Shown piece after piece: positions 26,531 to 46,345 of a DNA stretch of 64,000 nucleotides. Both the position numbers and the translations under genes were made by a program. The number at the start of each line of letters is the position of its first letter. Position 1 is the stretch's first letter. The notes beneath the pieces were generated by a model that saw nothing but the letters and a program-made list of their open reading frames with translations, was not told the origin of the DNA and ran no database searches. Source of the stretch: Branchiostoma floridae (Eukaryota > Chordata > Leptocardii > Amphioxiformes > Branchiostomatidae); contig NC_049980.1 in the NCBI RefSeq assembly GCF_000003815.2, positions 11,347,816 through 11,411,815 of the forward strand, given 5' to 3'.

Positions 26531-29500
26531 TTAAGCTAATTTGATGCCCTTAAGGTTCTTCTGGTTCATGACAACCTTCTCTTGTCTGGAGACTTCCTCC
26601 TTGAAGGCCAGTTTGTTGGCCTTTTTCTCCATTCTTCTCTCCTGGTAAAGTATCAGAAGAAACAAAGTTAGTATATCATGCTGCACATGATAATTTCTTG
26701 CTCTTTTCTGAGCTTGGTAACACTTGGTACCAACGTGTAAAAACAAAACAAAAATATACGAAATTGGCACCCACCCTCCTTTCTGCCTTTACAGCCTGTT
26801 TCCTTTGTTTCTTTTCTTCAGCTGTTTCCCCTTTTCTTCTGGCTGGAGTAGGTCTACTTTCACTTTCTTCTTCATCTTCTGAACTTTCCAGTTCTTCATC
26901 CATGTTATCCAGCTCCTCCAGCTGTTTCTTGGTGAGACCTTTACCCCCGAGCACACCAATGGGAATGCCACTTTTCTGGGACAGGATGATCTGTTTCCCC
27001 TGAACATCAAAAACAGACAATCAGTTCTCTGTACCTGTACAATAGGCCGGAATTGGACCTCAAAAATAGCAACATATTTGATGTGAGAATTTGAAATACC
27101 TTTTTGGGTTTAGGAGGGTCCTTAATCACTGTTGGGTGGTTGTATAAGGTGGAGTATGTACCTGGAAAAGAATAAAAACTAGACTCACAAAAACCTTAGT
27201 CATAGGGAGTTAGTTTGATGTTAATACAATCTCAATATCCACAAGTACACCTATAAGGTGGCACTTTAATTATTAACCACTTATTGCCTACAACACAGGA
27301 AATTGAAAATCTCATACCCCTGTGAAATATATGTATACATGTGTACTAGTTTTTAAAAAAAATATCTTGTTTTATTTTCAATTGTGCGTTTATCACCAAT
27401 TTTTCCGACATATTTTCCTTGTGAGGTAACAGACATGCATATAGCAGGAAAGAATTGAAGACAGTACATGAGATAACCTACTGTGGGATCATTGACCTAA
27501 CTTCTTGTCAGGCTCCCCTACATGCCTAGCATGTGGAAATCAGACCTTCTACTGCATCCATATAGCTACAAGAACACAGACAAATACATAGAAAACAAAA
27601 CCTCCATGCATGTCATTCACACTTACTGAGGATGGATTCACAGTCCCACTTTTCTTTGGGCTGCTCTGTGACCATCTTCACTAGGTCCTCTTCCTCAGAC
27701 TCTGATTCTGATGACACATCTTCTTCTCCTTCCTCCTCAAGGATCTTCTCAGGATCAAGTCTTCTGATGATACTGCAATCAACACGTTTTGAAAAACATT
27801 TAAAAAAACATAATCAAAGAAAAAAAAGAAAGCAAAGATAAATATTTCCATGGGTTCATCTGATTAGTTAATCAACTGATATGATGGTACATTATAAATG
27901 ACACAGATACATGGCCATAGATACAAAAAACGTGTTACTGCTACAGCAAAGATTAAATTTAACACTACAAAAAACAACAACGAAACCTTGGTATGGGTAT
28001 TGAAATTAGAGGACTTCATGTCAAAAGCACATATGGTAATGGAAACACCGGCATCTTTACAGCTAAACGTGTAAGTTTGCAGTGGAGCATAAGGAAAAGT
28101 TTCGCAATTACAGTACAAGTCTAAAAAATTCTGTTTGATGTTGATTCATGTTTCTGTCATAATTGAAGACCATACGTAGGTACCTTTCTTCTTTCTTCTT
28201 CTCATATTCCTGTAGGATGTTGTTCAGCACGAGGCTGTCCTGCTGCACAGTGCCTGTCAGCTCCTCATGGTCCAGAGGCCCCATCTCATCATCATCATAC
28301 TCTTCATACAGCTGAACAGGCACAACAACAGTTCCATGAGCTCATGCCTCCATGGACTAGCTGCAAGTTCTCAAATGTCTCAGTTAATTGTAGTTCATAA
28401 ACTATGAACGTAATTATTCAACATAAGGCCTTCATTAACATTGATCTCTTCCTGTCAGGATATGGTGAACAGGACTATCATATGGAAAATAAAATTGCAA
28501 AAACAATCTCCCCATAAATTAGTAGTCTCTCCCATTGACCCCAAGACCTGTCAAGTCTGACACTTCCTGTCACTTTCAAAAAGCTGAATTTGTGACTTCA
28601 CCATATTCCTACTCACCTCCTGCTACTCTACTGACATTGTATTGAAATAAATTTGGACACGCCAACAAAGCACATGAAGGGAACAAAGTTTTTTCTTAAC
28701 ATTTACACAGCTGAGAAAGTAAAAAAAAAAAAAAAAAAACTTTGTTGAAGAGGTTCATCAGTCACGTATGCAAACAGTTACAACAATTTTCATCAATCAA
28801 TGACTGTTTTTGTAAAGGTACAGCACATACCTCCCAAATTTTTCGATGTCTACCAGTACATCATTGTCAGAGGAATGACCTAGTCTCAGTTCTCGCGAGG
28901 TCAGGTTTAAAAAAAACTAAAACGTTTAAAACGTTTACATGTACATACAAAAAAAAAAGAGAGAATTCCTTAGAAAGGAAAAGACAGACTGTCTCCTACC
29001 TTTTCAAACCTGTCATCTAGAAGAGTCAAGCCTTCATTTCTCCTCATGACGGAGGATGTGATGGAGTATTCAGTGAACCTGGATTTGGTGGTTCTGTAAG
29101 TCAGCCCCTCATCAGAGCCCTCCTCCTCTGATTCCATCTCACACTCGTCAGACGGGTATTCCCCATCAGTGTCTACTTCTTCTTCCTCCTCATCTTGGGG
29201 GGCTGCGGTTGCCATGGAGATGAAATCATCCTCAAGGACGTTGTCAGGGTCATCGTAGTTGAAGTCTTCATCAAGAGCTGCTACAATATCTGGGTCCCAG
29301 TCTAGCTGTGGGCCTATATGGGAGGGAAAAGTGCGATCAAAGTTAACTTCACAAAGAGAAATTCCAAACAAAATGTTTGAAACAAGGCCTAACCCTAACA
29401 CAAGTCAAAAATCTCTCTGACCAGTGAAAATTCTACTTAAAGCTAAAGCTGCAGCTACCAGACTAAAAGTGTGCATACATATCAATATGGAGGTACCTAA

Positions 29501-32285
29501 TAGTATCAAAAAAGGTTAAACTTTGAAAGGGACTGATATATAGATGTAGGCTTATATACCAAGTATAATTACAATTATGGCTCTTTGAAAACTTGTCCTT
29601 ACAGGTACAGATCTCAGTCTACTTTAAAGTCACAATACATACATGTACAGCACGATCACTGCTGTAAATTCATTTATCTTTGTGAGTATGTAACTTTGTG
29701 GCAGAAATGAAAAAGATTTTTTTGCAGTCAAAACAATACTATAGCACAAAAATACATATCTGCATTCCCATAACATTACCGTGGAGAGGAACCTTGAAAA
29801 TAAAACCACTGCAAACGTTTCAAGATTTACAGTACCTATGGATTAGAGATAAACGTCATCTTCAAGTTGCTACATGTAAATGTTCTCCCTTACCCACGAG
29901 AGGTACTGCCTTGTTGAGCATGCCCACATCCTCCTCCTGCTCAGATGGGAAGACTGATGCAGGAAGCTGTAGTCTGGGAGTCTCCTCTGTAGCTGGCTGG
30001 GGCTGTGGTCAAGGGGAAATATAAAGGAGAGAAAACATGTGTCATACAAACTCTGCTGTCTACATACATACATATAAATTTTGTTCTTGGTCTATGAAAT
30101 TTGATAAGTGATCTGTCAAATGTTTGTTATTCATTGGTCGCTAAAAAAATATAAACACTAGTAGAGATGGTGTAAAAGAAGACACAATCTAATGATGAAC
30201 CAGTGCACAGAATGTAGAGTCAATTCCACATTACCAAGAGGGTGCTTCTTGCCTTTTGTTCCAACATTTTGGAAATCTTTATAACATTCTAATTGTGAAT
30301 AGTAACTGTTTAGAACTGTTTATAACAGAATTGTGATGTTCTGAATATTTTCTACAGTATTCAAACATGTTAGAAACATTTCTAACATCAAAGTCATTAT
30401 TTCTGATAGTTTCTAAACTGTTCCAACATAGATTCATCATTTGTGATCACAAAAGACCGAGCTTAGCAGCTTGGTTTATGGGGGTAATAAAAGATTTTAT
30501 GGAGGGAAAAAATGACACAAATTGTTGGAACATTTGAGAACATGTTCCAACAATAACAAAAACACATAGATGTTTCTAAATTTTTCTAAATAAAGAGATA
30601 TTTGTACCATTAATTCCCCAATGTTTCCAACATATATAGATAGGTTCAAACATGTTAAAACTTTCATTTTCAATTGTTTGAACAATTTAGAACTTTAGTG
30701 AGATATTCTTTTATTTAGAATAGTTCAAACTTATGACAAATATTGTTTCAAAACCCTCTCAATGACTCGGAATCGACTCTAAACAGGAGTGATTGACATA
30801 CAATGATTTACAGAACTGTTTAGTACTGACCTCATCAGTAACCTCTACCCTTTTGATGTTGACCTTTGACACGCTGGGTTCCAGTACTGCCTGCCCTGGT
30901 TCCTTCAGGTGCTGCAGGTAATCATACTCATCCTCAAAGTACACTCCGTACTTCCTCTGCTCCTCCCTTCTCTTCTCACTACTGGCCGAGACCTTGAATT
31001 GTAACAAAGAACAAACAAGTTAAAAAACAGTCCTGAATCACAATGAAGAGGAAGAGAATGTAAATTCATTTTCATAGGGACCTAATTTTGTAAAGGGAAA
31101 AGGAGATTTTGCAGTGTTTTAAGCCTGCGATAGAAACTATTCTGTAGTACAGTTGGTATTCAAAAAGCGCATATTCACAGTGTTCTGAATTTGCAATGAA
31201 GAGGTCACGGTAAAAAACACAAAAAGACAACCAAGTCGCAAACACTTTAAGATTCACAGTGCCATGACCAGGAGTTAGTTCATCTGTAGTAGGTAGGCAA
31301 CGTTGCCAACTACTACTACGTAGTCTATATAAGAGAATGATAAGACACATGTAAAGAATGATCACACACATGTGAAGTGACTCTACAAAAGAATGCATGA
31401 CTATGTAGAGAAGTGAAGAAGATGGAGTGCCTAATGTGTGCTTAGTGCTGACCAATTGGAAAAAAGCAGCGAGAGATGAACACGTGAGAAATACGCAGAG
31501 AGAGAGAGAGAAACAACAGCACATGTGACCATCATCCGACGAATCCGACGGCGGATATAGACTATATATAGAGACAACAACAAGATATCTATTAATCTAG
31601 ATCGGTCATGATCTTGCTCACCTCTTGTAGGACATGTTGAGGTTTGTCCTCATCAGCCTGCAGGGGGTCCCTCTGACTTCTGTGGACCAGGTGAAAGGTC
31701 ACGGCATTCTTGTTGTCAATAAACTTCTTCTTCTTCCTCGGCTGTGGAACAAAGATATCATGTTGTAAGAGCAGTGACCTTTGACATATACAGTCTTTCC
31801 CAAGTGTTATGACCTGTTCAATTGTTACAAGGCCAGGGTATCAATATCAACTTAACTGACAGATCTACTACAAAGGAAAGATATCCAATATCAAATAAGG
31901 GTGTACACAGAACATGTAACGTTACACATACTATAAGTTAGCGTGTTAATTATATACTTTAATATACAGGAAGCATGAATACTTGTCACATCATGCAAAT
32001 GTTGTAAATAATATGTACGACATGTAAATTACAAGCAATTACAATATATCTATTCATGTTTCCTAACCAGATAAAAACTTCTGTTCATGCGTTAGTTCTT
32101 AGTACTCATATACCTACAATTTGTACAAAGTGTTCATATAATTTATTTGTGATAAAAAGCACAAGGCTACCACCCCCCTCCCCACACAGTTCGAAATATC
32201 GTTTAACTGTCACCGTTTCTTGTTGTTGATGCCGTCCTTGTACCAAATGGAAACCATGGAGTTATAAAGAACAAATCTTTACCAT
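26531..32285 (-). CDS. LTV1: LTV1 ribosome biogenesis factor, 10 exons, 459 aa
   Basis: LTV1 is a non-ribosomal assembly factor for the small (40S) subunit and travels with the pre-40S particle. Coding exons in transcript order: 32283-32285, 31622-31741, 30831-30992, 29894-30002, 29000-29313, 28184-28311, 27627-27772, 27100-27161, 26775-26999, 26531-26641; they sum to 1380 nt in frame. Recognisable segments: PRKKKKFIDNKNAVTFHLVH at the N-terminus, EEQRKYGVYFEDEYDYLQHL near residue 60, LDWDPDIVAALDEDF near 135, RFTEYSITSSVMRRNE near 210, the acidic SSESESEEED tract and the basic C-terminus EKKANKLAFKEEVSRQEK. Human LTV1 is 475 aa. The first coding exon contributes only the ATG. A minus-strand AATAAA at 26484-26489 is 42 bp past the stop. 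The gene is divergent from the SLC17A9-like gene, 316 bp away. Identity is secure. Confidence 0.95.
29690..29836. repeat. Dispersed TTTTGCAGT / GATTTACAGT repeat in LTV1 intron
   Basis: A short element begins TGTAACTTTGTGGCAGAAATG...TTTTTTTGCAGTC and ends ACCACTGCAAACGTTTCAAG followed by ATTTACAGTACC. Related copies recur across the window (see the finding on this family). It carries no coding potential. Confidence 0.6.
30256..30725. repeat. Foldback-rich AT element in LTV1 intron 3
   Basis: This stretch is packed with variants of GTTCCAACAT, GTTGGAACAT, TTTCTAA and CAAACATGTT in both orientations. A perfect 13-bp inverted repeat ATTGTTGGAACAT (30521-30533) / ATGTTCCAACAAT (30542-30554) has only an 8-bp spacer. 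It looks like an old palindromic MITE; no gene is seen. Confidence 0.55.
31080..31262. repeat. Dispersed TTTTGCAGT / GATTTACAGT-type repeat, best copy
   Basis: The copy in LTV1 intron 2 runs from GGAGATTTTGCAGTGTTTTA through CTATTCTGTAGTACAG and GAATTTGCAATGAAGAGGTC to AACACTTTAAGATTCACAGT. The same succession of blocks, in whole or part, recurs in introns of all three large genes. Confidence 0.65.
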
Positions 32286-32601: not shown

Positions 32602-35600
32602 ATGGCTGCCGCAGGTGCGGAAGGATTGTTGATTGACGTGGCCGGTGCGCGATCTGCTTCTGCTGTGAAGGAACATGATCAGGGCAGTCAGAGATACTGG
32701 AAGAGGTGAGAACTTGTCTGCTGTACCATTTTATTTTGACATTTTATAACATTCGCGGGAGAAAAGGTAGCGAGATTTGTGCCAACCTCGTCGCAATGTG
32801 CCCCCCTCCCACATAACTTTGTGGCATACTGGAAGTTCCAGTTGGTACACCTTTGTAGACAATTTCTTATAAAATCAACATTTAATTATCCTACCCAAGT
32901 CTATTACAAACCCCGCAGCCCCATAAGGTATGAATAAATCTTTTAAAAGTATAATCTTTATCATTATTTGCCAACAACAATTAACGCTAGTTAACCTTTA
33001 TTCGCTCAGTTACCTTAATTCGGTTTTNNNNNNNNNNNNNNNNNNNNNNNNNNNNNNNNNNNNNNNNNNNNNNNNNNNNNNNNNNNNNNNNNNNNNNNNN
33101 NNNNNNNNNNNNNNNNNNNNNNNNNNNNNNNNNNNNNNNNNNNNNNNNNTGAAAACAGCGAGGTCATAATTTGTAAGCTTATTATCTAATAGCCTACCGC
33201 TCTATGGGAGGATTGCGTCACCGTGTTGTTCGCCGGAATGGCAGAGATCTATCACATTCGCTTCCAGTTCACATTTATCATGCACAAGACAACTCAATAA
33301 AGTTTGTGTTGCTAACCAGTAACTGGACTCAAAGTGTGATCAATTGTCGAAAACCGTCTCTTTGTTGCCACAACCTCCCGCACTTGTGGCGCACTCGATC
33401 GAACGTCGCCATGTTTTTCCCCAGAAACCTACGGTCGCAACCGCGGGAAAAAGATTGGATGACGACATTAAAAGGCATTTATTAAACTTACCTTTAATAA
33501 CTCACTAACTCGCCTAGCCTTTTTCTCTTAGATTATTAAGCAGCCATCTATTAAACAATTTATGCACCACCAAAAGTGGAAATGATATGGAACATCGACA
33601 AATTAATTGATTTTACTCTGGTCCCCTTTTTTTAAAAATGTGAAAGTCCCAAGCCAGATCATGTAAACTGTTGCAAATACGGCCTTGAAGACGATACCAA
33701 CTGTCTCAGTACGGGTATGTTACACCGATAACAAGATTTGCACTGCATATTTGTCGACCACAAGTCTGACAGCAATGTTTTATATCATTTATTGTGGAAT
33801 CTTTCGTTCTTTGATCCAGGGCATTGACAACAGCGGCATATCAGACTTCACACCCCTTCATCTTTAGTGTTGTTGGCCGCCGGAATAGACCTTTGACACA
33901 AATATATCGGGTAACATTTTGCCGCGTGGAGGATGCAAAACACTGTACAGATGGTTGTACTGCAAACTGATGATTACCCGCTTGGAAATAGCCACAGCAC
34001 GCCGTTCAAGTTGCAACGAAAGGTGCATAAGTTTCATGGAACGGTATGGCGCCAGGATCGATTCTACGTCACGGTCTACTGACCCAACAACCTCATTTTT
34101 TTACCAACGCGCTACTGCGTGTGACGGTAAATACTCAGCGGTAGTTGTCGGGATTTTTTTGTTGCCTGAATAAGTTTGTAATCTACAGCGCTCCATTCAT
34201 GTCAAGAAAGGAACAATAGCTTCAGCATAAAGTAATTAGCAGCGGACAAACATAACGAGTCTCGTCAGAACGAATAAAGGTCACGCCCTCCGGGAGCGCC
34301 GTCGTTCTCAACGCAACGCGACGGTGTTTTCAAATTGAGACATTTTCATATTAGCATGGTAGGAGAGAAAATACATCGTGGATGGGATGAATGACAAAGG
34401 TAAACAACAATATCACCATGTTGAATACAGAAATTATGCTTTGTTCTTCTGCCAGATTGGAATAAGCTGACTCTTGGTGAAAAACGCAACGAATAAAGGT
34501 TAACTAGCGTTAATCAAATTATAGATAAATATGAGAACAAAATAAATCAAGATTGAAGAAAACACGTTGCCAACAAATTGTTCACTGTGCTATAGTACTA
34601 GCAAATTAAAGTATTCTTTGAGAATTCTGGAGAAGAAAGGAAGAGATTGTCAGTGTTGCACCAATATGTACTTTGGTGGGTATCAATAATCACCAGGTGT
34701 ATTTTGCCCAAATTATGAGTAATGTGGTCGAGGCATCTCCTCGAGCACGGGACCCCCATCTTACGTCCCTACCGGAAGACGATTTCGTGGAAAGCTTTGT
34801 GAGGCTACAGCAATCTGGTCGTTCTTGGTTGGGGGTCTCCCATCCAAGCACTGTCCGGACCGCGGGTTGCTTAACTTCCAAGATCAAGGGATCGGGTGTA
34901 CCAGTGTACAATTGCAGTAAATAGTTTTGGGACAATAATTCCAGCTAAACCTGATGTTACCTTTCTTGTTGACAGAACTGAGAAGAGACAATGGGTGTTG
35001 GCATATTTCATCGGCAATGCAATCCTGTACGCCTCCCGGGCCGCCATGCCTGTCTGTGTACCCGCCATAGCCAAGGAGTTCAGCTGGGACAAAACTGTGT
35101 CTGTGAGTAAATAGAAGTACTTTTCTAGAGTGTGCATGATTTAATTTTTTACACACATAACTTTTGTGTACAATTACAGTAGTATAGTACAGAATTCACA
35201 GGACAGAGGTTGATGATGATAAATGAATTGATTGATACAAGAGAATTGACAGACTCCCTTCATTGTTTTGAACAGGGCAGTGTTCTATCAGTGTTTTTCT
35301 GGGGCTATGCATCAACTCAGGTGTTAGGAGGCTACCTGAGTGACAGGTGAGTGTACAACTCTTGCTTTCTCTATCTGGTTTAGCGTCCGCTGTTCCCCAT
35401 CTTGTGAGGGTTGGACATTGCAGGATGTTGCTCAGGTCTGCTTGCTGATCTCCAGGAGATCAGACAAAAGCAACATGTCAATTTAGAGGACACACACATA
35501 GATATACAACAAATGTACAATACCTTTTGAATTATTATTATTTTTTCAAAATCATTTTTTGATAGATTAAATGCTCTTTTCTTCCACCTTCTCTCCAGGT

Positions 35601-38600
35601 TTGGAGGTGAGGTAATCTCCATGGTTGCTGCTGTTGGCTGGTCCACGATCACCCTGCTCTACCCACAGCTCCTGTACCTCTTCAGTTCACATGACACATG
35701 CATCAGGTTTGTCATCCTGTGCAGAATCCTACACGGGGCATGTCAAGGTAAGGCACTACCAGTGACTATAGTCTACATGCAATTTTCTTTCTTTTCAAGT
35801 TCATTTTGTATGGGTATAAGGTAAACATGTCTTGATATTCATTGATTCAATTCTAAGTAATATTGCATCATGCATGCTTTCTCCCTTTTTTTGTGCTCTG
35901 ACTTACTCCTTCATAGTCACTCTTGCAAAACTACGAAAGCTTCACCCTCCTTTTTCAGCACTGGAAACCAGTGCTGAAGATGGCTTCAGCACTGGAAACC
36001 GAGTGCTGAATGTTCGTCAGCACTGGAAAACCAGTGCTGACGCGCTCTCAGCACTGGAGACGCCGGCTTCAGCACTGGAAACCGAGTGCTGAATGTTCGT
36101 CAGCACTGGAAACCGAGTGCTGACGCTCTCAGCACTGGAAACGCCGGCTTCAGCACTGGAAACCGAGTGCTGACGAACATTCAGCACTGGAAACCCAGTG
36201 CTGATGAACATTCAGCACTGGAAACCGAGTGCTGAGAGAGCGGGAGACTAGAAGTCTCACAGCACCCCGGCCCTTTTCAGGGCCCCCCCCAAATCTTTCC
36301 CAAAAGGGCTATATCTATCACAAATTGACACAATAAAGTTGTTTGCAATCCCGTTTTAATGATATCCATTCCTTATACATTTCAATTATACAAAACAACA
36401 CAAATTCAGGCTTTTTTGCATCTGTATCTATCTTACGTTATATCAAAACCGCCGTTCGGGGTAACACACCAGCTAAAACTGCATAAACTTGAAAAACCAT
36501 CTTTATTAGTACCGTATATAGTACCGCTTTCAGTACTTTGTATCTATACTCTATACATACACCAAGTTACACAGTCATTAAATTGAATAGCACAACCAAA
36601 AGTTAGCCTGTTTAGGCTATAGGCACACTCAGTGTGTCAATAGCCACAGCGTTATTTTTAATCAGTATACGTCAAGTACCGCTCTCAGCACTAGGACACT
36701 CCAGTGCTCGAACTGAGACTTCGGCACTGGTTTGAAGAACGTTCCAGTGCTGAAAAGACGTCAGCACTCGTTTTCCTGTGCTGAAGATTGCTCAGCACTG
36801 GTGTTCCAGTGCTGAAGTGCCCCTGAGCACTGGAAAATCGAGTGCGGAAGGCGAAGCTTTTGTATATCAGCACTCGGTTCCAGTGCTGACGGCGGTTTCA
36901 GCACTGGGTAACCAGTGCTGAGTGACCTTTGACCTGACCCGTCGCCGCCCGGGCCGCGAGTTCAGCACTGGAGCCGAGTGCTGACGAACATTCAGCACTG
37001 GAAAACGTCTTTTCAGCACTGGAAAACGAGTGCTGACGTCTTTTCAGCACTGGAAAACGAGTGCTGAGGGAGCTTCAGCACTGGAGAAAGGCCGATCAGC
37101 ACTGGAAAACGAGTGCTGAACATTCTTCAGCACTGGGCGCCGAGTGCTGAGTCCGATTCGACCATTGTTTTCAGCACTCGGTTCCAGTGCGGAAGGTGAA
37201 GCTTTCGTAGACTTGCGTCACTCTTGAATTTATTAAACTTTAAAGTTGTAGCTCAGGACACACTCTGTTTCTTGAGATAACACCATAGGATCCTGCTGAA
37301 TTCTTCCTGCAAAACTGCAAGAAATTATCCCAAATTAACAACTTAAGCCCTTTTGTGTGGTGACTCTCAAACGTCAATCTAAACAGGGTTCTCCCCAGAG
37401 AGTGGAATAAGGGAGGCCCTCCACTATACTCTCAGCCAGCTCCACTACACTATTTTTCAAATTTAGTGTGTTTCTTCCCTATTTTCTTTGTTAGTTTTGC
37501 TTAGATTAATGACAATTCACAGATTTTTGTACCAGGTGGCATCACTTTTCTAGTCAGCATTGTCTGCAAAAACTTGTGAATGAGCAATGATCAAAACAAT
37601 AGTAGTTTTGCCACTTCACAACAAAGGAATAACAACAGTATATTATACTTGTAGTATTTGACACCCTCTGTCATTGCAAAATGAACGGTGATGGTGGCAT
37701 TTTCATGAAAGTGCAGCGCGTTGGTGCGGGTTATTTTTGCCAGCCCCTCCACTATACTAAAAAATTCTGGGGAGAACCCTGCTAAAGTATTAATATTTTA
37801 ACGGCTGGGCATGAGAATACAATAATTGTATTCAAGCTGCTTGTCACAAGAATGCTGGTTGCACAGATATAGAAATATCAACGTATACGTTTTCTATATG
37901 TGTTCCAGATTAAAATCCAATTATACTAAATTCACCCCCCTTCCCCTTCCATGTACCCTCCAGGTATGCACTATCCATCCTTTACTAGTCTTCTGGCCCA
38001 CCGCATCAGAGATACAGAGCGTGCCCTGGCATACAGCATAGTTAGTGCAGGCTCACTTTTCGGGTAGGTTTATTTTTTTACCTATACATGTAACTCATGT
38101 CTTACCTTCTTATGGCGTTAGGTGTGGCTTTCCCTGCTGAGTCCAGCCTTGTTGCCCAAAATGTGAAAACTGACAGAACAGCCACGTATACTATCATGCA
38201 TTCTGGAATCAAATTTGGGTGAGTGCCCAACCTAGTCTTTAGTATCATTGATAGAATGTCTGTATGATGAAAACAAACGTTACATTTCTACACATCTAAG
38301 TATAATGACAATTTACAAGTGCACAACAAACCATTACTGATTGCTTGATTTACATGTATTTACACCCATTGTCTATCTTCCTGGTATCGTATTAAAAGGG
38401 ATATAAATAATTACAATTCTGGTTCAGAATACTGTGAACTCATTTGCAAGGACATAATTTTCAAGTGGAAGCAAAGAATTAAGTTTTCAGTTCATTCTAA
38501 GTTCACAGTTATGCTGTTCAGCAGTAATGCATGTTTGTGGTATCATGAATTAAATGGAAGCTAGGGGTCTTTGCAAAAACACAAAATTTTAAGATTTACA

Positions 38601-41600
38601 GTTTGGAATTTGGGCTTGCAGTTTTGAATTATTATTTCTTAAAATGCTTTAACTTCTTTAATTTCCTTCATTCTTTCTGCCCAGGGCCCTGTTGATGGGT
38701 TGTTTTGGCTCCATAGTGCTGGTGCATTTGGGGTGGCACACCGTCTTCTACGTAACGGGTGTGGTAGGTCTACTGTGGGCGGCTGTCATGAGAATATTCT
38801 TTGTGAGCAGGAGAAACATTGTGTCCATAAAATCCCTCAATGGTTCCAATGAGGAGAAGAAGAGGCCACACATGCCCTGGAGAATACTCTGTAGGAAAAC
38901 AGCATTTCTGTGAGTAGTAGCTATGGGACTTGAGGTTTTACTTCTAGCTGATCATGATGGAGGTGTCACAGTCTTTCTCTTGTGATTTATCTGCATATGT
39001 GTGAATCACTGTTTTATAATAAGTTTTTCAAATAGGATACAAACATAGTAAACGTTAACAATATATCTATGAAGGTTAGACATCAAGGTAGAACATTATT
39101 AAGTAATACAAAATCAATAAATCAATCAATCAATCAACTAGTTTCTAGTTTCTCAAAAGAGTCAGATGTTTCAGAAAACATGAACTGTCTGACTGTCTGT
39201 CTTCAGTCACAGAGAGTGTAACAGAGAATGATAAGATTTCTGTTTTTTTTTGTCTGCAGCTCTGCAATTGTTGCCCATGTCTGTAACAACAACCTGTTCT
39301 TCATCATGTTCTCCTGGATGCCAACATACTTCCATGAGACATACCCAGACCAGAAGGTAGGTTCCAAGATATGTCTACACACAATCAGTTGCTAGGCAGA
39401 CAAAAAGACAGGTAGGCAGACAGACAGACAGATAGGTAGGTAGGCAGGCAGACAGACAGACAGATAGGTAGGCAGGCAGACAGACACTTACACGTTCTAT
39501 CAAAGCGTGTCTGAGATGCGTCAAAGAAGTTGTGTCATGGTACAGTAGCACAATGTTGCCTTGTGATCTTGTGATCATTGTATTGATAGTACATGTACAG
39601 TTAATGGGTGAAAGTTGCTATGTAAAGTACTCCTAGCAGATAAGTGTAGTTGTTCCTGGTATAACATGTAGTATTTTCTTTTTACCTTTTAGTGCAATGT
39701 ACACGACATTCAAAATTTACTTACTTTGTTCATTGAATCATCAGGTATGTACCATTTCTAAATGTACAAAATGTTTATATGTTTGATTCCAGGGTTGGAT
39801 CTTTAATGTAGTGCCATGGTTGGTGTCCATGCCTGGCAGTGTGCTCTCAGGATGGATTGCTGATTCTTTGATAAGAAAAGGTACATTGAATTCTAGAATT
39901 TGAGTGATTTGTTTTATAATGGGTAGGGTCTTCAGTTGATTAAGTGTAATGGTACCAAGTTAGCTTATGAGTAAAAGTTAGGACAATCATTGCAGTTGTG
40001 ATGGCTTCATGCAGTTTGTATCCAACCTGCCAGGTGGTGCTGTTACTGTATTGGAAAATAAAGCATGTCTGTTGTGTTGGTATTTCACTGTTTTACCTCT
40101 TTCATATCTTATTTCAGGAACAAATGTCACACTAACAAGAAAGATGGTTGAGGTAGGTTAAGTTTACACTTCCAAAGTTACTTGCATGTACCCTATTACA
40201 ATGTTAAAGTTATCCCTATACTAAGTTCCAGTTTATTTGAGTTTTGTTAAAATGACACAGGAGCCCAAATATTAAAGTACACTTCCTTCAATCTGATGTT
40301 AGTGAACATTAAACTTTTAATTCCATTCATTATGCCTTCATGAACAGATGTGATAACATACAACTGCTGGTTACAATAACGGAAATGCTTTATTCTCAAA
40401 AGAACATTTCATTTTAGTTGTATTTCAGTTTCATCAAGTGATGTCAACTCCAAGCACTTAATTACATGCATGTTCATGTACAATGTACAATGTACAATGC
40501 ACCATCATTGAGAAATATGTCATCATTTTGTTTTCTTGTACTGGCATTGTTGCTAACACCAAGTGAGCAGCAAGTCATAAAAAACTGGGCATATGATTAG
40601 TACATCCTCCCTGAGCAGAAATACATGCTTATAACATTTGTGTTATTTTGTTATTCTGTGGATTGTAGGTATTGGAGGCCCAGTTATTTGTTTACTCCTG
40701 ACAGACTATTATTTTGTTGTCCTGTAGATTGTAGGTATGGGAGGACCAGTTGTTTGTTTACTCCTGACAGACTACACGAACAGTTTTGTGATGGCGCTGA
40801 TGGCTGTTTCCATGGGGATGTTCAGCCAGGCCTTCCACAACAGTGGGGTGCTTGTCATACCTCAGGATATCGCTCCTTCGTTTGCTGGTGCCGTCTTTGG
40901 TAAGTTTAGCATTCCCACTATCGTGACTGTGCAGTTTAGGCTATATAAGTGTACAAAAAATATACATGTACAAATGTACATATATCTTGTTTGGTTATCT
41001 GATTTGTACTACCATTCTGTGGCTTTCTATTTGCAATTAGTCATTGTGTTGGTACTCAAACTTTTTGTTTGGGAATAGATAACGTGATGCACCTAGAGTA
41101 GATATTTAGGTGTACAAAAAATGTGCTGGGTGCACAGCATGAAATAAAGTAGAATGTCTGCAAAATGTAATTACAAATATTGCTGCCTATCTTTAGAGCC
41201 TGAAGCTGAAATTCTATAGCTAACTTAAAAAAATATTAGCTATTACATCATTGTACTGCATCCTGGATTTGGTATTCTTAAGTGTCCGTTTTTTTAAATT
41301 TCAAAACAAAGGAAATAGCTTACCCTTTGGATAAAGGTGAACTAACATTACATACATTGTACATGTACAATGCAGGACTGACTCAGTGTGTTTGCCTTGC
41401 AGGTGTCATGAATATGCTGGGTGCCATACCAGGTAAGAAACTTGCTACACCCTTTGGGGTCTTCTTGTCTTGTCGTTGCTAAGGAAGATTTATGAATGGT
41501 GGTGTCATACATGTAGATAGGGCAGGGTAAGGTGTCATAGATGGCTATGTTAACATGTGTGTCAACAACAGGGAACATATACAAATGTACATGTATAGAA

Positions 41601-44600
41601 ATAGTAGAGTTGGAGAAGGAAACAAAGGGAGATTTACACATAGTGACTAGTGAGTATACCATTATTAATTAGGAGAATATTAATTAAGAATGAAATTAAG
41701 GGAGAGGGAAATACTCTCTAATTAATTGGAGTTGGAATATTTGATAATTGGTTCATTAACTGCACTCATTAGTCTGTCTCTGGGGTGATTGGTTCTGTAG
41801 AATGTTTGCGGTGTTATTATTTAAGCTGAACTCTTCATCCCAAAATTATCACACCGCAAATATGCACTTCCAATGTACTACTTCTACTGTGTGGCAGAAT
41901 TACTTAAAATGTGAACTATAAAAAAACACCGCAAAAAAACTTTGTTCCATTTCTAAGCTTTTTGAAAATAAATTAATTTACAGTAAAACCACAATCCTAT
42001 AGAAACCTTAAGCCAAAGCTGACACAGTGCTGTGAGGATGTATGTAAGGCCACAGCAAGTAAATTTTATGGATGACATCCTCTGCAGACTGCAAAAATAA
42101 GAAGAAATGGCAAAAAAAAAAAAGATGGGTAAAAAAAAGCAAGATGGCAAATTTTCAAAATAGACATTGTAACAAGACTTGAAGTGACAAAATATGGCAT
42201 CACAGCCAACAAGGCATTCATTCCTGTATTTAATAAGTGCACCAGTGTAGTTAAAGTGACACTAGTGTGGTAGACTGGTAACTACACTCATAGCTTCCAT
42301 AGTTCTGCCACTCTTACAACTATCTATCAAGTTTCACTTCTGCAACTACAGTCAATGCTACAGAGTCTCTAGTGTCAATTCTACATTCAATAATTTGGTT
42401 ACAACACAACCTTTACCCATTTTCGTCTATTCGGCCTTCCCTGAAGAAGAAAAAAATTCTTGTTTTTTTTCTGAAATCAGGCGAAAGTTAATGAGTGCGC
42501 GGATGTCATCCATAAAATTTACTTGCTGTGGCCTAACATACATAAATTGCAAAGAACATGACCCACAGCATTTTCCATAGTCCTCCATCATAAACCACAA
42601 CTGTATCATCTGTTGGCATTGTCAGCAAAACAGATAGAAACAAATTAAATGCACACGTGAAGCAAATTGTTGTGCAATAAAGTTATATATCATAATTATA
42701 TACTGTAGACTTTACTCTTGCAAATATCAATGAAAAAAGGCATCAAGAGTTTCCTTCTGGTGTCTAATTCTTTTCAAAGTTCGATTTTTCCTTCTCAACT
42801 CATTTGTCTTCATGTATCAAAAGTCGTGTGAAGGATCTCATTACACTAATGCATTCTTTGGGGTCTCTCACATGTAAGACATCACTTTGTATTACTCATT
42901 TCATCACACAAACATGATTGGTGACAAATCCTTTATCTGTGTGATGCATAGATCTTCTGAAACCATTCACTCAATCGACATGTTCTCCATTTAATTTACT
43001 GTGTATGTGTGCATACCAGCAGTTGTGACTTGCCAAGTCATTATGAGTGAAATTAGGGTTTGTAAAGAAATTTGGATATACATGTACATGTACAAAGCTC
43101 TGTTGCCATTACATAAGGGCTTAGAAATGCAGATATGAGTTGTTGGTAATGAGTTTAGTTATGATAACATTAACTAAAGATATCTACTTGATTAGTGCAT
43201 ATATACACTGTAGGTTGGTCCATTAGTGTTATATTTTATATTCTTAGACAAAACTTTTTTGGTAATGTAACTGCAATAACATAGACAACTATACAGACCC
43301 AAAATGATACCTCCCCGTGAGTTATTAGTAGCCTCTTCCATGGATATTGTCCATCATATCTGTTGTACCAACTCTTAACTGTACCTACTACCACTCTGGC
43401 AAGTCTGGCCCATGTCCCATGTAGTCATCTTGCCACTCACTTAATACCATCATCACACATGACAATGTATTCAACTAAATGTGTACACACACACACCTGC
43501 ACAAACACACACACACACACACACACCAAAAGCAAAGACTATGTACACTGAGTCAAAAATGTACATTCTCCAATAGCTGTGTATCATCTTTCTATCTATG
43601 GCTAGTGACATGTATGTTATACATTGATACTCTTGTACCAAGAAACTTGGCACAGGAAGCTCCAGTTCTTATCTTTTTCTGAACTAATCCTGGTCATCCT
43701 TCATCATAATACTCCATAGGCCTTGCTGTCATGTCTATTGCAGGGCTCAAGATGATGACCCAGAAACTTGAAAGATGATCGCGATTTCCTTTCCCAGTTA
43801 TCTCCCTTTATTACATCTTAAGTCCCCGTGGACTGGTGACGTCCTGTTGGGAAGCCCTGTGGATCTGACCCAGTGGCACGGAGAATGTATCGTCAAATCC
43901 CACAGAGTGCTGTCACAGTTGCTTTATCCTTGCACAAAAGTTCTTAGATTACATCCGGAGAAAAAGAGTTGATCAAACTTTTATCGGCTGATCTAGTTCT
44001 TAAATGCTTTGTGATAGGAGGTATTCTAAAGCAATAAAAGGAAAGCCACTCCCAATTGCAGAAGGGATAAGAAGGTTGCCGTGAGGTTAATTGGTCATGT
44101 GGCACAAAGCCTTTGGCCAAACCAAAAGGAATTATTTGATGGGACCCTGTCATTATGCAAGGTGCACTAGAGGCTGTGCCACCATATATGTCACAGATCA
44201 CTTAATGAATTTCATAGATATATAAAGACTTTTTTTTTACATTTTGTGTGTTTTGTTATCATTTATATCATACTTTAACATCTGCCATCATACTCCAAAT
44301 ATGAAATCAAGGATCACACAAATCCAATTTTGGTCACTGTCCAGGGCGCTCAAAAATTGCCATCTAGTGGAAAATTGTCCCAACTGTGTAAAGATATGGA
44401 TCTGAGGACTGATGTGCACAGTAAAAAAGCCATATAGTGCTAAGCTTGCATGGGATACTGCCAAGCTTTGAGTGTTGAACAAAAATGTACCTACGTTTTC
44501 TTCCTTATCTTAGTGCTTAAAATCTGCTGCATCAAATTTTATGTCTGACTCAGTAAGTTTTATAGATTTGAGTGGGTGTCGAGGAAAGATACCAAAAGCT

Positions 44601-45404
44601 TACAACAAGTCTTTGCTCCTTGGCAATATGATACCCTATAGGACACATTTTCAAAGATTGCCAGTCTGGTACTTGAATTAAAACTGAATTGGTGTTGCAT
44701 GTCTCTTGTTGTGCCCTGTGAAATCTCTGTTATTATGAGCCCTGAAACTGAAAATCTGCAAAGTGCCTGCAACACTAAAGTACAACATGTCCTGTATATG
44801 CCAAAAAGCAGTTACTCAGGCAACTGGTTATGACATTGAAAACAGTCAGACAATGCAGACAGCCTTTTGGCATCGTTCTTTTGCCTGTGAGATAGTTTTT
44901 ATATCCGAGCTGTGAATGGATATGCAAAAGAGATCCAGTTGGACAACAGGTTTATCCTAGCTGTGATATAATATGCAGCAAAGGGAGGAAGACAAATTTT
45001 TAGATTTTTTACATATCTATTTACATGTACAGCTAGGGTATAAAAACTATCCTCAATAAGATTTCTCCAGTGTTACTCACGGAAGACACTGGACGGCTAT
45101 CTGAAAAGTCTGACTGTTTCTGAAATCATACCCAGTTGCTTGAGTAACTGCTTTTTGACATATCTTATTACATAGATGTCTAACCTTCATCGACAACGCT
45201 TCCTGTAATTCTGTATTTTGGTGTCAAAACCACTTACGACTGCACTGTGAATGTTTCTGTGCAGGTGTGGTGGGTGTGTACCTGGCAGGGCACATTCTGG
45301 AGCTGACAGGCAGCTGGGCAGCTGTCTTCCACCTGACAGCTGCCATCAACACCTTCGGACTGCTCGTGTTCCTAGTCTACGGATCAGCTGAGAGAATAGT
45401 GTGA
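32602..45404 (+). CDS. SLC17A9: SLC17A9-like MFS transporter (vesicular nucleotide transporter family), 445 aa
   Basis: The SLC17 anion transporter family member SLC17A9 loads nucleotides into secretory vesicles using the membrane potential. Exons: 32602-32705, 34976-35102, 35276-35346, 35599-35747, 37964-38063 (or 38122-38218), 38685-38909, 39260-39356, 39793-39880, 40118-40152, 40728-40899, 41403-41432, 45265-45404; the total is 1338 nt in frame. TM1 is about residues 40-62 (WVLAYFIGNAILYASRAAMP) followed by a short loop, as in SLC17A9 and unlike other SLC17 members. The MFS loop motif is GYLSDRFGGE (about 94-103), and a TM4 arginine is in ILCRILHGACQG. C-terminal landmarks are GWIFNVVPWLVSMPGSVLSG and QAFHNSGVLVIPQDIAPSFAG. 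About 12 membrane segments fit the 436-aa human protein. Intron 1 holds an assembly gap; intron 11 is 3.8 kb. Substrate is inferred from the family only. Confidence 0.9.
33028..33149. other. Assembly gap (122 N)
   Basis: A run of unknown bases lies inside intron 1 of the SLC17A9-like gene. The recorded length may be nominal. Confidence 0.99.
33150..34719. other. Intron 1 sequence, no feature recognised
   Basis: The sequence from the gap to the 5S-derived SINE lies in intron 1 of the SLC17A9-like gene. No coding exon with matching family sequence, no clear transposon ends and no tandem repeat were seen. Confidence 0.5.
34720..34925 (-). mobile_element. 5S-rRNA-derived SINE
   Basis: Read on the minus strand, the head resembles 5S rRNA: CCCGATC..., TTGGAAGTTAAGCAACC, GTGCTTGGATGGGAGACC and TTGCTGTAGCCT follow in 5S order, covering the internal promoter. 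The tail (rc of CATCTTACGTCCCTACCGGAAGACG) is shared with the tRNA-derived SINE at 56885-57146. It is a degenerate SINE and not a functional 5S gene. Confidence 0.75.
35956..36235. repeat. Hairpin array, block 1 (TCAGCACTGG...AGTGCTGA)
   Basis: Ten units of TCAGCACTGGAAACC follow one another; in eight the half is matched by AGTGCTGA, giving 8-bp stems with a loop of about 8 nt. A higher-order repeat of about 80 bp is visible (the two units ending in GACGCCGG or AACGCCGG). It lies in intron 4 of the SLC17A9-like gene. Confidence 0.85.
36685..37196. repeat. Hairpin array, block 2 (TCAGCACTGG...AGTGCTGA)
   Basis: A second, more diverged block of the same TCAGCACT/AGTGCTGA hairpins, with variable loops (GGTTCC, GGAAAACG, GGAGCCG), is separated from block 1 by about 450 bp of unrelated sequence. 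Both strands carry it equally because each unit is a palindrome. Confidence 0.8.
37384..37781. mobile_element. hAT-type MITE in SLC17A9-like intron 4
   Basis: The 398-bp element has 16-bp terminal inverted repeats CAGGGTTCTCCCCAGA / TCTGGGGAGAACCCTG and an inner repeat CCTCCACTATACT near both ends (the right copy direct, not inverted). CTAAA occurs immediately outside both ends (37379-37383, 37782-37786), a partly decayed target duplication. No transposase is present. Confidence 0.8.
37964..38063 (+). CDS. SLC17A9: SLC17A9-like exon 5a
   Basis: Encodes MHYPSFTSLLAHRIRDTERA then LAYSIVSAGSLFG: the end of TM4, the cytosolic loop and the start of TM5. The acceptor is ACCCTCCAG and the donor CGG|GTAGGT. 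Length 100 nt; it enters at phase 1 and leaves at phase 2. It resembles the human SLC17A9 sequence in this region slightly better than exon 5b does. Confidence 0.88.
38122..38218 (+). CDS. SLC17A9: SLC17A9-like exon 5b (alternative to 5a)
   Basis: Encodes VAFPAESSLVAQNVKTDRTA then TYTIMHSGIKFG, homologous to exon 5a with one residue fewer. The acceptor is GGCGTTAG and the donor TGG|GTGAGT. Length 97 nt; phases are the same as 5a (1 in, 2 out), so 5a and 5b cannot be joined in frame and skipping both also breaks the frame. It begins only 58 nt after exon 5a ends. Confidence 0.8.
39408..39486. repeat. Tetranucleotide microsatellite (CAGA/TAGG)
   Basis: Imperfect CAGA, GATA and GGTA repeats follow the donor of exon 7 in the SLC17A9-like gene. 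Confidence 0.85.
40655..40727 (+). pseudogene. Decayed tandem copy of exon 10 start
   Basis: ATTGTAGGTATTGGAGGCCC at 40662 repeats ATTGTAGGTATGGGAGGACC at 40728, a 66-bp period that includes the upstream acceptor region. In the first copy the acceptor CTGTAG has become CTGTGG, and read as coding it hits an in-frame TAG just before the true exon. It is therefore a dead partial exon duplicate. Confidence 0.8.
42040..42543. repeat. Inverted repeat pair with 34-bp perfect arms in intron 11
   Basis: AGGCCACAGCAAGTAAATTT and the following ...TATGGATGACATCC (42047-42080) recur as the perfect reverse complement at 42501-42534. The similarity continues imperfectly outward (TGTATGT, GTGCTGTG). Either it is one transposon with long termini or two copies of one short element in opposite orientation. 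Confidence 0.75.
43486..43526. repeat. (CA)n microsatellite
   Basis: An ACAC tract with a CTGCACAA interruption in intron 11 of the SLC17A9-like gene. Confidence 0.9.
44798..45190. mobile_element. Foldback MITE, GCCAAAAAGCAGTTACT family, copy 2
   Basis: Left arm GCCAAAAAGCAGTTACTCAG (from 44800) is followed by GCAACTGG and AACAGTCAGAC. The right arm is the inverted equivalent, AGTCTGACTGTTTC through CAGTTGCTTGAGTAACTG to CTTTTTGACATA. Outside the right arm GATGTCTAACCTTCATC matches, inverted, the left flank of copy 1 at 24103. The internal spacer is about 250 bp. Confidence 0.75.
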
Positions 45405-46345
45405 GGGACAGACAAGCCTGGAGAAGGACAAACAAACACTGCCATTCTACTCATCATCATCATCATATCTTGTGCATGGCAGTAGATATGCCATTCTACT
45501 GTAAACCTTGAAATGTACTAGGTTGTTGTATTTTCACAATCATGGTGACCTCTTATTGCAAAATTTCTAATGAATTACAGAATTTCCAACCAAGATCTTC
45601 AGACACAGAGAAAACCCCATTTGCCCTTCTACCGCAAAATGACTGATATTATTACAGTTTAAATCTATCATCAGTGTTCTTCTCACCCCTCATAGACTTG
45701 TACATGTACTACACTTAGAAAAGATCCATGTACTGGTATACTGTACAAAAAATGTACCTCTACACATTCCAGTCTTTGTACATGTAAGTGCAATAAGTGT
45801 GACACATTGCACAGTAATTGCACACTGCCTAAAAGGAAATTCTCTTACATTTTAAACCGAATGCTTGCCACAATGTTTAGTCTTGTATCTTATCATCTTT
45901 GTTTTAGAAAGGTGGTCATAAATGTATATATTTGGTAATTTTGTAGCTGATATTATACTTAAAGTGGTATTGATAATGAAAATATTATGGTGATGGGTTG
46001 TTGCTATTGCTAACAAAACCTTTTGAAATCTATTTATGTAATACCATATAAAATGTATGTACCATAATACCATGTAAAAACCTTCATGCTACAAATGTAT
46101 GAACGAGTATTACAGATGACATCACAACATATCTAGACATTAGGGACAAATGCAATCAACTTCTTATTTATTGATGGCATTGTAAACAAAATTAGGTACT
46201 TTTTGAAAAATAATGTACATGTCTTTGATTTTATGTGGGTGTTGGATGGTCCAGAGATTATGTGTCATAACTTGAATACTTGGCATTCAAACTCACATCA
46301 AAAGATAAAGTGCAATTTTTGTAAAAGACACAAATAAAATTTGCA
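45405..46345 (+). other. 3'UTR of the SLC17A9-like gene
   Basis: The sequence after the stop codon runs about 930 bp to a polyadenylation hexamer AATAAA at 46333-46338. It includes a copy of the dispersed TTTTGCAGT-type repeat (about 45505-45665) and several ACATGTA palindromes. Confidence 0.6.
46333..46338 (+). terminator. Polyadenylation signal AATAAA of the SLC17A9-like gene
   Basis: A canonical hexamer in CACAAATAAAATTTGC about 930 bp after the stop codon at 45404. Confidence 0.5.

Follow-up and report, generated by a model that had tools for sequence, protein, structure and literature searches.

Two similar exons stand next to each other in a putative transporter gene of Branchiostoma floridae, and the locus raises the question of whether a single gene makes two carriers by choosing between them and, if so, in what property the two carriers would differ. 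The exons, here called 5a and 5b, lie in a window of 64,000 nucleotides (NC_049980.1, positions 11,347,816 to 11,411,815 of the forward strand), and all coordinates below are those of this window. The original prediction, made from the letters of the window, held that exactly one of the two exons must be chosen and that the products differ in the substrate path or in coupling. The product with exon 5a is referred to as isoform A and the product with exon 5b as isoform B.

Gene structure and family assignment

The gene lies on the plus strand and covers 34976-45404 or more. By sequence, exons 2 to 12 could be placed, all on the plus strand and with GT...AG introns. The conserved part begins in exon 2 (34976..35102), in the TM1 region, and is followed by exon 3 (35276..35346) and exon 4 (35599..35747), which ends in RILHGACQ/G and contains the TM4 arginine at the position of sialin Arg168. 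Next come exon 5a (37964..38063), exon 5b (38122..38218) and exon 6 (38685..38909), the downstream partner common to both. The remaining exons are exon 7 (39260..39356), exon 8 (39793..39880), exon 9 (40118..40152), exon 10 (40728..40899), the 30-nt exon 11 (41403..41432) and exon 12 (45265..45404), which is the last coding exon and ends in SAERIV followed by the stop codon. A search with Rfam at gathering scores gave no matches over 34900-45500. Upstream of the gene there is a run of 122 N bases (33028-33149) that could affect the first exon or the promoter, and an LTV1-like gene is represented by two pieces on the minus strand at 28973-31016 (Pfam LTV, PF04180, 80.7 and 50.3 bits).

The gene product is an MFS protein, with scores against PF07690 (MFS_1) of 173.2 bits for isoform A and 165.4 bits for isoform B. 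The top PDB sequence matches are alike for isoforms A and B, and comprise sialin (SLC17A5), VGLUT2 (SLC17A6), VGLUT3 and the bacterial D-galactonate transporter DgoT. With the protein in the MFS family and its closest PDB sequences within SLC17, the transporter is a member of the SLC17 family as judged from sequence, and is probably of the SLC17A9/VNUT-like kind. Compared with a 34-residue segment that we take to be that of human VNUT, identity was 19/34 for 5a and 16/33 for 5b; for both exons the corresponding count was 9 with sialin and 8 with VGLUT2. A single scan of contigs for bacterial relatives yielded two loci at 23% identity, too few for a deep alignment. The B. floridae Slc17a9 has been described as carrying lineage-specific changes and as basal within its clade (PMC2824716), and the words 'exon' and 'splice' do not occur in the main text of that paper.

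Anatomy of the exon pair

Exon 5a is 100 nt long and exon 5b 97 nt, and they are separated by an intron of 58 nt (38064..38121). Both have GT-AG ends and the same phases, 1 on entry and 2 on exit, and they encode the peptides (G)MHYPSFTSLLAHRIRDTERALAYSIVSAGSLF(G) and (G)VAFPAESSLVAQNVKTDRTATYTIMHSGIKF(G), respectively. These features had been claimed and were recovered when coordinates and sequence were rechecked. The further claim that joining both exons or skipping both breaks the frame was borne out by early stops in either reading. When 5a is joined to 5b, a stop is reached at the sixth whole codon of 5b, and when both are skipped, at the third whole codon past the junction codon.

The two peptides are homologous, as had been proposed, with 12/33 positions identical, 23/33 positive and one gap. 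Their Smith-Waterman score was 59; the maximum among 20000 shuffles was 42, and none reached 59. The window was also divided into 2989 segments (at least 15 aa, stop-to-stop, six frames), among which only 5a itself matches 5a better than 5b does, and the segment that follows in rank scores 37. The exon boundaries of 5a and 5b fall at homologous residues. A tblastn search of the window with isoform A at E values up to 1 did not list 5b, probably since neither ungapped half is strong enough to reach BLAST's gapped step; full Smith-Waterman alignment does find it. Exons 5a and 5b are adjacent, tandem and homologous in sequence. Each is nearer to the presumed human VNUT segment (19/34 and 16/33) than to the other (12/33), which would suit an old duplication.

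Position of the swapped segment in the SLC17 fold

Exon 5 had been assigned to the end of TM4, the loop and the start of TM5, and alignment to sialin supports the assignment. The exon aligns to sialin Gly176-Gly209, which comprises the cytosolic halves of TM4 and TM5 together with the TM4-5 loop between them. No gap is needed for 5a and one for 5b (at 192, or near 189 in the alignment made by HMMER), and both exons are gap-free from 194 to 209. The TM4 arginine, to which the segment was said to be near, lies eight residues before exon 5, but it is within constant exon 4 and not in the swapped segment. The positions of sialin Arg168, Glu171 and Glu175 are Arg, His and Gln here, all three in exon 4. 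The TM4 glutamate Glu133 is essential in DgoT (PMC6532931); it corresponds to sialin Glu175 by our own reading, and this position is Gln in both isoforms.

Within the swapped segment are the positions of sialin Phe179, His183, Tyr203 and Gln207. Residues kept in both 5a and 5b are the aromatic at 179 (Tyr/Phe), Pro180, an acid at 194, Arg195, Ile201, Gly205 and Gly209. The most radical changes between 5a and 5b (sialin numbering) are Phe/Glu at 182, Ser/His at 203 and Leu/Lys at 207. In addition, 5b is one loop residue shorter, and positions 196/197 also differ. In sialin, Phe179 and Tyr203 are reported to line the inhibitor cavity and Gln207 to contact NAAG, and the Q207A mutant lost NAAG transport and retained glutamate transport (PMC11116495). 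In DgoT, the substrate is in hydrogen-bonding contact with Gln164 of TM5 and has Phe137 of TM4 packed against it, and the sialin disease mutation H183R falls in the TM4 stretch of DgoT Phe137 (PMC6532931). DgoT Gln164 is compared here with sialin Gln207 as a TM5 glutamine that also binds substrate.

The original prediction named the substrate path or coupling as the property in which the two transporters differ. Its first half can be narrowed, in that the ligand-cavity positions 203 and 207 differ between 5a and 5b; its second half is less favoured, in that the TM4 positions linked to coupling sit in constant exon 4. Substrate is favoured over coupling because the positions of Arg168, Glu171 and Glu175 all belong to that constant exon. 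In the mechanism we propose, residue 207 and its neighbours would be swapped and the TM4 aromatic, the proline, the gate arginine and the TM5 hinge glycine would be kept. The two carriers would then differ in the anions that they accept, or in how tightly they accept them, and not in fold or basic coupling. We put the chance that the choice between 5a and 5b switches substrate handling at close to even.

A variant of this explanation, which does not exclude it, is that the alternative exons tune the cytosolic gate, the pH or chloride dependence or the trafficking of the carrier, and not its substrate. The segment does include the cytosolic gate and hinge: sialin Arg195-Lys197 seal the gate (PMC11116495), Gly205 is the TM5 pivot in simulations, and Leu199 also belongs to the gate and hinge region (PMC13207226). 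The differences in loop length and at 196/197 would agree with such tuning. However, of the radical changes at 182, 203 and 207, the sialin ligand cavity is reported to hold 203 and 207, and tuning in place of a change of substrate appears possible but rather unlikely.

Retention of exon 5b

A swap of this kind presupposes that 5b is a working exon. Identity between 5a and 5b by codon position is 16/33 at first, 23/33 at second and 7/33 at third positions. Third positions are thus randomised and second positions kept, which argues for selection at the protein level. The fit to sialin was 145.5 bits for isoform A and 147.0 bits for isoform B, and 127.0 and 119.3 bits for two control isoforms with a shuffled 5b. 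Against VGLUT2, isoform B scored 110.7 bits vs 112.4 bits for isoform A, and against DgoT 97.4 vs 100.8 bits. For MFS_1, isoform B loses 7.8 bits relative to isoform A, whereas eight shuffled controls lose 32 to 46 bits (scores of 126.9 to 141.4).

Neutral drift from 5a was simulated under the Jukes-Cantor model without indels, with 20000 runs per branch length. At 0.7 substitutions/site, a fraction of 0.0001 of the runs retained both an open frame and 23 or more positives, and at 1.0 and 1.4 no run did so. Under the softer requirement of an open frame and 12 or more identities, the share of runs was 6.3% at 0.7, 0.4% at 1.0 and 0.005% at 1.4 substitutions/site. Exon 5b has probably been under selection for most of its life.

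At the shorter branch length of 0.35 neutral substitutions/site, 50% of the runs kept an open frame; 48% combined it with 12 or more identities and 9% with 23 or more positives. Recent decay of 5b after long service is compatible with these values. Exon 5b would then be a relic, a once-used alternative exon that is losing its acceptor, and the gene would effectively make one transporter. The splice sites bear on this explanation. Of the 12 acceptors examined, that of 5b, GGCGTTAG (TTACCTTCTTATGGCGTTAG), scores lowest, at 4.3 bits vs 5.5 to 13.1 bits. Among AG sites of the window it is at the 92nd percentile in a pooled model, and at the 55th in a cruder position matrix in which the start of exon 2 was one base off. 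Donors were scored with a matrix trained on the gene's other nine donors, 5a and 5b being left out. The donors of 5a and 5b are at the 98.5th and 98.8th percentiles of window GT sites, respectively; with scores of 7.7 and 8.1 they rank second and third from the bottom among all 11 in the gene, whose scores run from 6.9 to 11.3. In sum, 5a has a good acceptor and a good donor, and 5b a good donor and the weakest acceptor. Regulated exons often have weak acceptors too, and that of 5b suits a regulated exon as well as a dying one. What speaks against a relic is that 5b contains neither stop nor frameshift, that its donor TGGGTGAGT ranks so high among the GT sites of the window, and that isoform B fits sialin as well as isoform A does. 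We consider the relic improbable.

An alternative in-frame acceptor for 5b was sought and rejected, as use of the first two internal AGs, 20 and 25 nt into the exon, would shorten it to 77 and 72 nt, both out of frame. Elsewhere in the gene, a tandem duplication with an offset of 66 occupies 40640-40727, just 5' of exon 10 (40728), with 61/70 compared positions identical. It repeats the 3' splice site and the start of the exon; its upstream copy has GG for AG and no evident donor. This partial duplication of exon 10 is apparently recent and dead, in contrast to 5b.

Enforcement of the exclusive choice

The original prediction suggested that the short distance between the exons may itself prevent the splicing of 5a to 5b. 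The size of 58 nt was as given. By consensus prediction the intron contains five yUnAy branch-point candidates, with adenines at +9, +17, +34, +41 and +49 from the donor, and all five are less than 50 nt from it, which fits a steric block of 5a-to-5b joining. A donor-to-branch-point distance below 50 nt is the criterion given for steric interference (PMC5740500). A 56-nt intron of a human gene serves as a splicing model (PMC8363638), so that a length of 58 nt alone is no proof of a block. In B. floridae, 91% of introns exceed 200 bp according to a table in PMC2397502, the text of which gives a cassette-exon fraction of 95%; an intron of 58 nt would therefore be out of the ordinary there.

Complementary intronic sequences had been suggested as a second means of enforcing the choice. 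Pairing of the 58-nt intron was checked against the last 400 nt of intron 4 and against the 466-nt intron after 5b, and was no better than that of shuffles, 48/60 and 46/60 of which were as strong or stronger. RNA pairing as an enforcing device is unsupported in these three stretches. Incompatibility of U12 and U2 splice sites was rejected as well, the intron ends being ordinary GT and AG by eye. A single UGCAUG, which we take to be an Rbfox-type motif, is found at 38528, 310 nt 3' of 5b. About 0.26 copies are expected in the 1050 nt scanned, assuming equal base frequencies, so the one copy observed carries little weight. Intron 4 contains clustered short palindromic units of the TTCAGCACTGGAAACCGAGTGCTGA type at 35954-37151, with periods of about 31 nt and 83 nt, and rows reported by Tandem Repeats Finder cover about 550 of its 2216 nt.

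The mechanism that we propose is as follows. The spliceosome would be unable to connect 5a with 5b across an intron of 58 nt, because every yUnAy branch point is less than 50 nt from the donor. Exons 5a and 5b would compete for exons 4 and 6, with 5a the default through its stronger acceptor and 5b, with its weak one, in need of an activator or a cell-type factor. Any product that contained both exons or had skipped them would meet an early stop and be subject to nonsense-mediated decay, as a back-up to the steric block. A short donor-to-branch-point distance and frameshift with nonsense-mediated decay are both named as enforcing means in PMC7969005. Backed by the anatomy of the pair and by the constraint on 5b, mutual exclusion of 5a and 5b is well supported as a prediction.

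The same early stop in 5b could be read in another way, with 5b as a regulated poison exon that, when included beside 5a, throws the transcript out of frame and reduces the output of transporter, its peptide being a by-product. The 58-nt intron disfavours the 5a-5b joining on which this depends, and an SLC17-like peptide would be superfluous in a poison exon, whereas 5b retains one with its third positions randomised; we regard the explanation as very improbable. It is harder still to believe that 5b was wrongly joined in from a paralogous gene or allele, since, although assemblies of polymorphic animals can be mosaic and the N gap at 33028-33149 is 4.8 kb upstream of 5a, that gap is the sole N run of the window, 5b lies 58 nt from 5a with matching phase, and no tblastn hit outside the gene has an E value better than 0.017.

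Discussion

We conclude that 5a and 5b are likely to be working, tandem-duplicated, mutually exclusive exons of an SLC17-family transporter. Tandem mutually exclusive exons are a known kind, and what is new here, within the literature searched, is their occurrence in SLC17. Among the matches listed in searches on amphioxus exons, SLC17A9/VNUT splicing and solute-carrier exclusive exons, neither an earlier SLC17 instance nor this pair was found. Mutually exclusive exons are described in the solute carriers SLC25A3, SLC39A14 and SLC12A1, which resemble the present gene in this respect and belong to other families (PMC5740500, PMC9741552); the term 'SLC17' does not occur in the main text of either source. 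In the excerpted text of the structure papers on sialin, VGLUT2, VGLUT3 and DgoT, exon choice in the exon 5 segment is not described.

With respect to mechanism, exons 4a and 4b of OGDH are comparable, in that a short donor-to-branch-point distance is credited with their exclusive use and their combined length is not a multiple of three (PMC7969005). They differ in that OGDH is a soluble enzyme and its branch points were investigated experimentally, whereas those of the present intron are consensus predictions. The nearest functional parallel is NALCN, with exons 15a/15b and also 31a/31b. As would be the case for 5a and 5b, a choice between tandem exclusive exons exchanges the selectivity segment in a protein of membrane transport, with E at the selectivity site encoded by the upstream exon and lysine by the downstream one (PMC3557258); here too the lysine is in the downstream exon. 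Unlike the present gene, NALCN encodes an ion channel and not an MFS carrier, and its exons are known from several phyla of invertebrates, their expression by tissue having been measured in a snail; for amphioxus only the EEEE form is reported in the excerpted text of that paper (PMC3557258). By this analogy, Leu/Lys at the TM5 207 position might switch cargo by splicing and be the carrier counterpart of the E/K selectivity-filter exons of NALCN, a tentative proposal to which we give somewhat less than an even chance.

The residues that set substrate choice in vesicular SLC17 carriers are only partly understood. As the exon swap changes just the TM4-TM5 ligand-cavity segment, the gene would provide a ready-made chimera, with two isoforms in one background. 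Should 5b prove to be expressed in specific cells, splicing in place of gene duplication may be a way for the animal to broaden its vesicular cargo. If this is true in a VNUT-like gene, a single locus would allow cells to fill their vesicles with different nucleotides or anions.
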